Source: Bdellovibrionales bacterium (GTDB lineage Bacteria > Bdellovibrionota > FAC87 > UBA2466). Taken from it: a DNA stretch of 59,042 nt. Below, in pieces: positions 31,072-54,870 of the stretch. The translations under genes and the position numbers were made by a program. Within the stretch, counting starts at the first letter, position 1; every line of letters begins with the position of its first letter. The DNA lies in assembly GCA_005776395.1 (NCBI GenBank), contig SXPJ01000105.1, positions 1-59,042 on the forward strand. The letters are read 5' to 3'. The notes under the pieces were generated by a model. It searched no databases and was not told where the DNA came from. It saw only the letters and a program-made list of their open reading frames with translations.

Positions 31072-31459
31072 AAGGGGTCCAACAGGCTATCGCGTGTGTT
31101 TTTAGTAACACCCGAGGAAAGTCCGGACATCGAAAAGCACCGTAGCGGGTAACACCCGTCCAGTGTAAAAACTGCGGACCAGCGCAACAGAAAGGAAGTA
31201 CAGGGCGATACTTTTTACCTTGGCAAAGTGAAAAGGTGGGCTAGCAATAGCTAAAGCTGCTGTAGTGAAAACAGGCAAGCTCTACGGGATGCAAGATCAA
31301 ACAGCGAAGCGTGTATTTTGAGTCAAATCAAAAAACCTTTGGGTCGCTTGCCCAAATGACTTCCAGGTAGATCGCTCGACTCTTCTGGTAACGGAAGAGC
31401 TAGATGAATGATAGCCCGGAGGAAACTCTGACAGAACCCGGCTTATCGTTGGACTCCTT
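31072..31459 (+). ncRNA. rnpB: RNase P RNA, bacterial type A
   Basis: About 388 nt. The conserved 5' core GAGGAAAGTCCGGAC, the central 'CAGTGTAAAAACTGCGGACCAG' region and the 3' core 'CAGAACCCGGCTTA' form helix P4. AAGGGGTCCAAC at the 5' end pairs with GTTGGACTCCTT at the 3' end as P1, which fixes both ends. It lies between gcvH (divergent) and a small membrane protein gene. Confidence 0.93.
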
Positions 31460-31508
31460 AAACTTCAACTCTAGTGAATAACTAAAAGAGATAGAGGAAA
31501 AACCCGTC

Positions 31509-31763
31509 ATGAAAAAACTTATTCGAATGGCGGCTATCGGAAGCGTTTTTGGAGGTATAACGACTTCATGGTTAGCCCCTAAAGCCATCGCCTGGTATTT
31601 CAAACCCCCTATCGATACCCCCGTTAGCTGTGCAGTTCCCATCGAATGGGCTCTCCATAAACTTCAACTAGCTCAGCTCTTAGGAACCTTAGGGGGGGCT
31701 ATTCTTTTTCTTGTGTTGGCCTTAACAATATTCAAAGAAAAAGCAGCAGTTCTCGGTGAATAA
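31509..31763 (+). CDS. Small two-helix membrane protein; C-terminus encoded by MITE
   Basis: 84 residues. There are two hydrophobic segments (about 8-30 and 57-74) and short charged ends. It starts 50 nt after rnpB, but the ATG is not preceded by a strong ribosome binding site (GAGGAAAAACCCGTC). The last six codons and the TAA stop (AAVLGE) are read from the terminal inverted repeat of hairpin element copy B, so the original C-terminus has been replaced. I do not recognise the protein. Confidence 0.45.
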   Translation: MKKLIRMAAIGSVFGGITTSWLAPKAIAWYFKPPIDTPVSCAVPIEWALHKLQLAQLLGTLGGAILFLVLALTIFKEKAAVLGE

Positions 31764-31973
31764 ATTTTGCAGCTAATTGAGGAGAGCTAGAAAAACCTTT
31801 TCGCAAAGTCTCGGTATGCCATTGGGGTGATTTTATGAGGGTTCATTCAAGAATTTGAATATACAAGTGGGGCGTACAGCGACTTTCCTTGGAGCTGGTA
31901 GCCCCACTTGTATATTCAAATTCTTGAATGAACCCACTTTTTATAATGCACCGTGATTCACCGAGAATCGCTG
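31744..31973 (+). mobile_element. Hairpin MITE copy B (full length, 230 bp)
   Basis: Terminal inverted repeats CAGCAGTTCTCGGTGAAT (left) and its imperfect complement ATTCACCGAGAATCGCTG (right) bound a 230-bp sequence without an ORF. The centre is a perfect stem of about 31 bp (arms near 31852-31882 and 31902-31932) around a conserved loop containing CGTACAGCGACTTTCCTTGG. Stem bases differ from copies A and C but remain paired. No clear target-site duplication is visible. It lies directly behind the small membrane protein gene and supplies its stop codon. Confidence 0.85.
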
Positions 31974-32023
31974 AAGGAAAAGAGGAGAGATAGACTTACT
32001 CTTTTAATAGAGTCACTTTCCAT

Positions 32024-32479
32024 TTATCTCACAAATGGCTGCCCTTCAAAGCGAAGGGCATCGGATATCTTAATCCGTTCTGAAGCAAAAATCGCATCCG
32101 GTAATTTGTCCGAAGAAAACCAGCCAAACTCTGAAGACTCGTGGTTAAGTTTAACCTCTCCCTGAAACTCCCTGATTAAAAAAGTGGCAGCGACAAAATT
32201 TAAGGTCTTACCTAGTTTAAACTCATAAAGCTGATTCAATTTAGGGTCAGAATAGATCCCCGTAAGCTCTACTTTAACTACTTCTAGACCTACTCCCCCG
32301 CTGATCCCTTCCTTCACTGCGGTAAGCCAATCCTGCCCACCTTTTAGGTATCCCCCGGGTAGATACCACTTTCCAGCTCCCCCCACTTTGTCCGAACGTA
32401 AGGTTAATAACACCTCATTTTTCTTATTCAAAATGATTGCGGAAACCACAGGTCTGGGACGTTCTTGATACTTAAACAT
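32024..32479 (-). CDS. Nudix-fold protein lacking the catalytic glutamates
   Basis: 151 residues, a tandem paralogue of the next gene upstream with the same length and the same C-terminal 'FxGxxFVR'. The fold is kept (VVSAIILNKKNEVLLTLRS, 'GKWYLPGGYLKGGQDWL', 'GIYSDPKLN'). However, the Nudix box positions that should read E, RE and EE are Q, EG and GG. Hydrolase activity is therefore unlikely; it may bind a nucleotide sugar or regulate. It is cotranscribed with its intact paralogue (9 nt gap). Confidence 0.75.
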   Translation of the reverse strand: MFKYQERPRPVVSAIILNKKNEVLLTLRSDKVGGAGKWYLPGGYLKGGQDWLTAVKEGISGGVGLEVVKVELTGIYSDPKLNQLYEFKLGKTLNFVAATFLIREFQGEVKLNHESSEFGWFSSDKLPDAIFASERIKISDALRFEGQPFVR

Positions 32480-32488
32480 AACCTCTCC

Positions 32489-32944
32489 TCAGCGAACAAA
32501 AACTTTGCCGTTAAAATGAAAAGCATCCTGAGCTCTAATGGGATGCGATTTTAAAATGGGGTCAGGTAAATTATCCAGAGAAAACCAATCCCAATCATCG
32601 ACCTCTTCATTAGGAAAAACTTTCCCCTCATAAGATAATACTTTAAACAGAGCTACTACAAATTGCCCATAATCCCCTTCCACGCCTAACACATCTTGCG
32701 TCACCGTTAATTTAGGATCCGAATAGATTCCGCAAAGAATGGCCTGTTTAACCGTAATCCCAACCTCTTCTTGGGTTTCACGAATGGCCCCCTCTAACCA
32801 AAACTCTCCTACTTCTAGATGGCCCCCAGGGAGACACCATTTTCCAGGCTCTCGAACTATCGAAGACCGTCGGGTCAAAAGAATTTCATTGTTTTCATTA
32901 AAAATCGCTGTATTGACTGCTGGAATTGGAATGATTTCTGACAT
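32489..32944 (-). CDS. Nudix hydrolase
   Basis: 151 residues. 'PAVNTAIFNENNEILLTRRS' and 'GKWCLPGGHLEVGEFWLEGAI' lead into a canonical Nudix box, G-x5-E-x7-RETQEEVGI, with all catalytic residues present. The size and the 'GIYSDPKL' segment resemble MutT/GDP-mannose-hydrolase-like members, but the substrate is not predictable. It is the first gene of a two-gene operon with the degenerate paralogue, divergent from tgt. Confidence 0.82.
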   Translation of the reverse strand: MSEIIPIPAVNTAIFNENNEILLTRRSSIVREPGKWCLPGGHLEVGEFWLEGAIRETQEEVGITVKQAILCGIYSDPKLTVTQDVLGVEGDYGQFVVALFKVLSYEGKVFPNEEVDDWDWFSLDNLPDPILKSHPIRAQDAFHFNGKVFVR

Positions 32945-54640: not shown

Positions 54641-54870
54641 CAGCAGTTCTCGGTGAATAAATTTTGAGGCTAATTGAGGATCTCCAGAAAAATATTTCCG
54701 CAAAATATTGGTGTGCCATTAGGGTAATTTTATGATGACTCATTCAAGAATTCAGATATGAAAGTGGGGCGTACAGCGACTTCCCTTGGAGCTAGTAGCC
54801 ACACTTTCATATCCAAATTCTTGAATGACTCCACTTTTTATCATCCCCTGTGACTCACCGAGAATTGCCG
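54641..54870 (+). mobile_element. Hairpin MITE copy C (full length, 230 bp)
   Basis: It is the same length as copy B and in the same orientation, bounded by CAGCAGTTCTCGGTGAAT and an imperfect complement ending AGAATTGCCG. The stem arms (about 54738-54767 and 54800-54830) carry two substitutions in one arm and one near the loop, so this copy is somewhat decayed. The loop 'CGTACAGCGACTTCCCTTGG' is conserved. It lies between two toxin-antitoxin systems. No target-site duplication is evident. Confidence 0.82.

Follow-up and report, generated by a model that had tools for sequence, protein, structure and literature searches.

The window analysed here, a 59,042-nucleotide stretch of the genome of a Bdellovibrionales bacterium (contig SXPJ01000105.1), carries three copies of a short hairpin-bearing element, A, B and C, whose coordinates and strands agree with those originally predicted. 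Copy B, full length at 230 bp, occupies positions 31744–31973 of the plus strand; a bacterial class A RNase P RNA lies just upstream (31074–31461), and two adjacent NUDIX genes (32024–32944) lie downstream on the other strand. Its ends read CAGCAGTTCTCGGTGAAT ... ATTCACCGAGAATCGCTG, with the left terminal inverted repeat, CAGCAGTTCTCGGTGAAT, at 31744–31761 (plus) and the right one at 31956–31973, reading CAGCGATTCTCGGTGAAT on the minus strand. The 9-bp target duplications on either side, AAGAAAAAG at 31735–31743 and AAGGAAAAG at 31974–31982 (both plus), match at 8/9 positions. The hairpin has a stem of 34 bp formed by a left arm at 31840–31873 and a right arm at 31901–31934, enclosing a loop of 27 nt (31874–31900; all plus) that contains GTACAGCGA and CCTTGGAG and lies in the orientation common in the family, here called forward. 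Its predicted fold is 13 SD below shuffles, and at the stem base the outer end of the right arm reads AACCC, against ACTCC in most copies, and so pairs with the left arm. A terminator scan around copy B, limited to loops of 3–8, found none.

Copy A (2307–2511, minus; 205 bp) is missing about 25 bp of its right side and is flanked by AGTTCATCC and AGTCCATCC, matching at 8/9. Its hairpin (2321–2415, minus) consists of arms at 2415–2382 and 2354–2321 around a forward loop at 2381–2355. The duplications of copy C (54641–54870, plus; 230 bp), ACAGTTCGA and GCCATTCGA, match at 6/9, so that each of the window copies is flanked by an imperfect duplication. The hairpin of copy C (54737–54831, plus) has arms at 54737–54770 and 54798–54831 and a forward loop at 54771–54797; two mid-stem positions are unpaired, the left arm reading TTCAGATATGAAAG and the right arm TTTGGATATGAAAG. 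Since these arms differ, the single string originally quoted for copy C represents its right arm only.

The MITE family and its candidate mobiliser

The genome searched comprises 2.76 Mb in 106 contigs of a short-read draft assembly and is 98% complete. BLAST found dozens of further copies in it, so the element does recur elsewhere in the species; the terminal repeat was met there as 60 exact ends, and about 33 hairpin sites were located with a covariance model derived from 31 hairpins. Pairing of the ends yielded 39 candidate elements, 27 of them near full length (205–233 bp) and with a hairpin, the further ones being short or truncated. The consensus of the inverted ends, taken over the 39 end pairs, is CAGCRRTTCTCGGTGA. 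At 28 of these pairs the 9-bp flanks match at 8/9 or 9/9 positions (for example AATTGATGT, CCTTTTACT and TGTTACAAG), which identifies the elements, by their sequence anatomy, as MITEs, that is, non-autonomous DNA transposons, of a family previously unlabelled. The MITE is about 230 bp long and without a gene, with no ORF of at least 150 aa inside. The original suggestion of a MITE is thus borne out by the terminal inverted repeats, the 9-bp duplications and the short length without a transposase gene, and the window is indeed devoid of a transposase. Clear 9-bp duplications and a DDE-type parent IS speak against a REP/BIME element served by a RAYT (Y1 HUH) transposase.

The MITE is so far known from one species only. 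BLAST found none in 96 relatives and the covariance model none in 13 family members, and exact loop patterns had no match in the contig collections genome_contigs and viral_contigs. The SecD protein of the host is 83–86% identical to those of MAGs labelled Bdellovibrionales, Bdellovibrionaceae or Deltaproteobacteria.

Four copies have mostly or wholly lost the hairpin (C41:76052-76176, C18:9397-9511, C24:21997-22157 and C45:3476-3635, with flanks of 8/9 or 9/9 in three of the four), as expected from the instability of palindromes. Mechanical gene calls, inspected post hoc, place nearly all full-length elements flanked by co-directional genes along the direction of transcription (13 with, 1 against); a further 8 elements lie in divergent gene pairs and 1 in a convergent pair. 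This orientation bias may reflect terminator-like use, target choice or selection.

The original prediction called for a search for a full IS with these terminal repeats. An IS with a matching left end and a DDE-type transposase frame is present in the same genome, only as fragments at contig ends, its interior not being assembled. Several contigs stop 140–141 bases into a repeat with a MITE-like left end; in this repeat the first ~37 bp equal the left end of the MITE and are followed by the N-terminal reading frame of a transposase. The right end of the IS, found on other contig ends, has only the 16-bp terminal repeat in common with the MITE. A left end on contig C28 and a right end on C82 carry an identical 9-bp flank, GTTTTATTG, and therefore represent the opposite ends of a single IS copy. 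Fragments of the transposase core (IDGT...) on C3 and C51 are 52–63% identical to a plasmid protein of Saccharobesus. Judging from the common left end and the transposase frame, this IS is the likely mobiliser of the MITE. Beyond the 16-bp repeat, however, the right side of the MITE and its hairpin are unlike this IS, and a different member of its group may therefore be the precise parent.

The parent transposase appears to be of the DDE type and IS4-superfamily-like. Its relatives match DDE_Tnp_1 or the N-terminal associated domain at E values of 0.01 to 1e-5, below the curated Pfam cut-offs, and NCBIfam matches to IS1634, IS1380 and IS4 are weak. The Saccharobesus IS has ends reading CAGCAATTATTGGTRAA, a 9-bp duplication, TAAATAAAG, and a 420-aa protein with a weak match to DDE_Tnp_1; searches with this transposase against E. 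coli and against the PDB returned no match.

Related IS ends are also present in congeners, in which neither BLAST nor the covariance model found the MITE. One congener (G002) contains a 911-bp element (L118:1501-2411) with the IS ends and a 9-bp duplication, CAGATTGAC; its interior consists of AGTAGTAGAAGTC repeats and other sequence, and it may be a derivative that carries a passenger. In the genome under study, the remnant of one IS (C51:1-260, L086, and C3:1-300, L127) has its transposase gene interrupted by the end of another IS, and the frame downstream looks, on our reading, like the C-terminus of a Tn5-type transposase.

Paired arm changes and inverted loops

The covariation of the stem arms noticed among the three window copies persists when all copies are used. 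Across 31 hairpins, both sides of a pair changed in 29 cells distributed over 13 of the 37 pairs, against 3.1 ± 1.7 and 2.8 in shuffles, none of 500 of which reached the observed number; slid structures, used as a control, gave 1–4 both-side changes. A second count, restricted to the 30 outer stem pairs, likewise found 29 paired changes (18 distinct types), along with 15 changes in the left arm only and 19 in the right arm only, and permuting the right arms among copies gave a mean of 2.95 paired changes and a maximum of 12, with 0/10,000 permutations reaching 29. Some variants are shared by descent, so that independent copying events must number fewer than 29. Many unpaired stem changes, of the sort that might have told against the original idea, do exist, yet the covariation stands beside them; the excess of one-arm changes (34) over paired ones indicates that correction is only partial.

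The original prediction missed both the parent IS and a second peculiarity of the hairpin. In four full copies (C1:31317, C2:863, C63:5546 and C81:28307) the outer parts keep their normal orientation while the loop between them is reverse-complemented, and the truncated copy C39:717 shows the inversion too. On a weakly supported tree built from the outer parts only (147 columns), orientation changes at least four times, and by this reconstruction at least four independent flips are needed. The forward copy C78:26132 and the inverted copy C63:5546 hardly differ in their outer parts and have a stem variant, GGATGTG, in common. Flipping also extends to the right-end hairpin of the parent IS, the sequence of which is unrelated to that of the MITE hairpin: in C51 the loop, 40 bases long, agrees with the reverse-complemented C71/C82 loop at 37/40 positions, and the stem is changed.

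What could be the mechanism behind these changes? We consider it probable that the MITEs are moved in trans by an IS4-superfamily-like IS with the same repeats and that their arms and loops are altered by template switching at the palindrome. An IS with a DDE-type transposase would move the MITE in trans and leave the 9-bp target duplications. The MITE carries a long near-perfect palindrome, and the nascent strand could use the opposite arm as a template during replication. A switch within one strand would pass a new mutation from arm to arm, giving an apparent compensatory change, and a switch between strands would invert the loop as well. Template switching leaves arm homogenisation and spacer inversion in yeast genes (PMC8604942) and in rRNA genes (PMC8794818). 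Here the arms are homogenised above chance and loops are inverted, both evident in the sequences themselves, and this known signature favours template switching as the probable copying step. Palindrome correction, mentioned originally as the alternative to selection on the folded molecule, is therefore the option that the data favour.

Template switching at a hairpin beside an IS end might even create MITEs, turning one IS end into a two-ended element, a possibility that we raise tentatively and consider doubtful on balance. Copying past the stem base into the terminal repeat would put a second, inverted repeat on the inner side. A 133-bp palindrome at C84:18556-18688 (L070), without a clear target duplication, consists of repeat, stem, loop, stem and repeat made only of IS right-end sequence, exactly the form expected if a MITE had arisen from an IS end in this way.

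Homologous recombination, that is, RecA-type gene conversion or crossover within one copy or between copies, would be another route to homogenised arms and inverted loops. Dozens of related copies could serve as partners, several stem variants recur among different copies, and a crossover between arms would presumably invert the loop. The arms, however, are only ~30 bp long, about as short as efficient homologous recombination usually allows or shorter still; the conversion seen in copy B stops only a few bases from the base of the stem, and the outer parts of the flipped copies are not visibly recombinant. We judge this route unlikely.

Still less likely is that the hairpin acts as an RNA (an sRNA, an mRNA stabiliser or an RNase III site) whose stem is kept by purifying selection through compensatory mutations. 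The very strong predicted fold, the significant covariation and the post hoc 13-to-1 bias along transcription would agree with such a role, as would the transcription and processing of other bacterial MITEs (PMC10969869). The character of the changes does not. Selection on one transcript would tolerate G-U above A-C mismatches, and the two occur 15 and 11 times, with no asymmetry (p = 0.56). Compensation through G-U would yield transitions only, and transversions make up 8/28 of the paired substitutions (7/17 when counted by distinct type), a share similar to the 8/34 among one-arm changes, which also speaks against RNA selection. In the element at C12:9077 (L012) the same base is deleted in both arms, and the 34 one-arm changes add to the list. 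Nor is the loop specially conserved: departures from consensus amount to 3.7% of sites in the loop, 4.8% and 5.2% in the arms and 2.7–11% in other parts of the element, which leaves the originally proposed conserved loop with weak support. The inversion found in five copies is difficult to reconcile with a loop that functions as RNA, a putative 6-bp stem within the loop has one pair disrupted, uncompensated, in 9/31 copies, and the elements have no Rfam match. Selection on the folded RNA is accordingly unsupported. The covariation needs no RNA function. Selection on a conserved loop was considered as a separate candidate and rejected, conservation there being no higher than elsewhere in the element.

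The inverted loops might be suspected of being assembly errors caused by the palindrome, given a short-read draft with several of its contigs ending within these repeats. Contig ends have 140–141 bp of IS sequence in common, so the assembly words were apparently ~141 bases long, more than the ~95-bp hairpin, and all four full flipped copies lie inside contigs, with 9/9 flanks in three of the four; the inversions are thus probably no artefacts, and we regard an assembly origin as very improbable. Equally hard to credit is an invertible switch operated by a dedicated site-specific recombinase, for which nothing but the inversion itself speaks, as the element encodes no protein and the IS right-end hairpin of unrelated sequence flips too.

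Covarying stems normally count as the strongest sign that an RNA is functional, and arm copying in a mobile palindrome can give rise to the same signal. The elements described here are ordinary MITEs, but they hold an unusually clear natural record of arm copying and loop flipping, with internal controls within one bacterial genome: loop flips, transversions, a paired deletion and the lack of strand asymmetry. These offer a simple way of guarding against mistaken RNA calls among repeat families, and with its many copies the family is a ready system, outside model organisms, in which to measure template switching and loop inversion.

Comparison with known systems

IS-mobilised bacterial MITEs, such as QMITE2 of Coxiella burnetii, resemble the present family in being short and non-coding, with terminal inverted repeats, target duplications of 7–9 bp, many intergenic copies, a strong fold and a co-resident IS whose ends match (PMC10969869). 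Unlike them, the family described here has a different sequence and a separate internal palindrome with arms of ~34 bp and a flipping loop. The IS on the Saccharobesus litoralis plasmid NZ_CP026605 has the terminal repeat CAGCAATTATTGGTRAA and a 9-bp target duplication in common with it, and its IS4-superfamily-like DDE transposase (WP_108601012) is 50–63% identical to fragments in this genome; in contrast to the MITE it is autonomous, about 1.66 kb long and shows no matching hairpin at its right end.

Chloroplast genomes have small inversions associated with hairpins (for example PMC2939885), in which the loop of a stem-loop likewise takes both orientations among relatives; they concern single-copy plastid loci and no transposon family. 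A further parallel is template switching at inverted repeats, or quasipalindrome correction (PMC8604942, PMC8794818), with its arm homogenisation, multi-base paired changes and inversion of the spacer or loop. Unlike the yeast and rRNA cases, the record described here comes from 31 copies dispersed through a single bacterial genome, and at 27 nt its flipped loop exceeds both the yeast spacers (2–5 substitutions; PMC8604942) and the rRNA loops (4–8 nt; PMC8794818).
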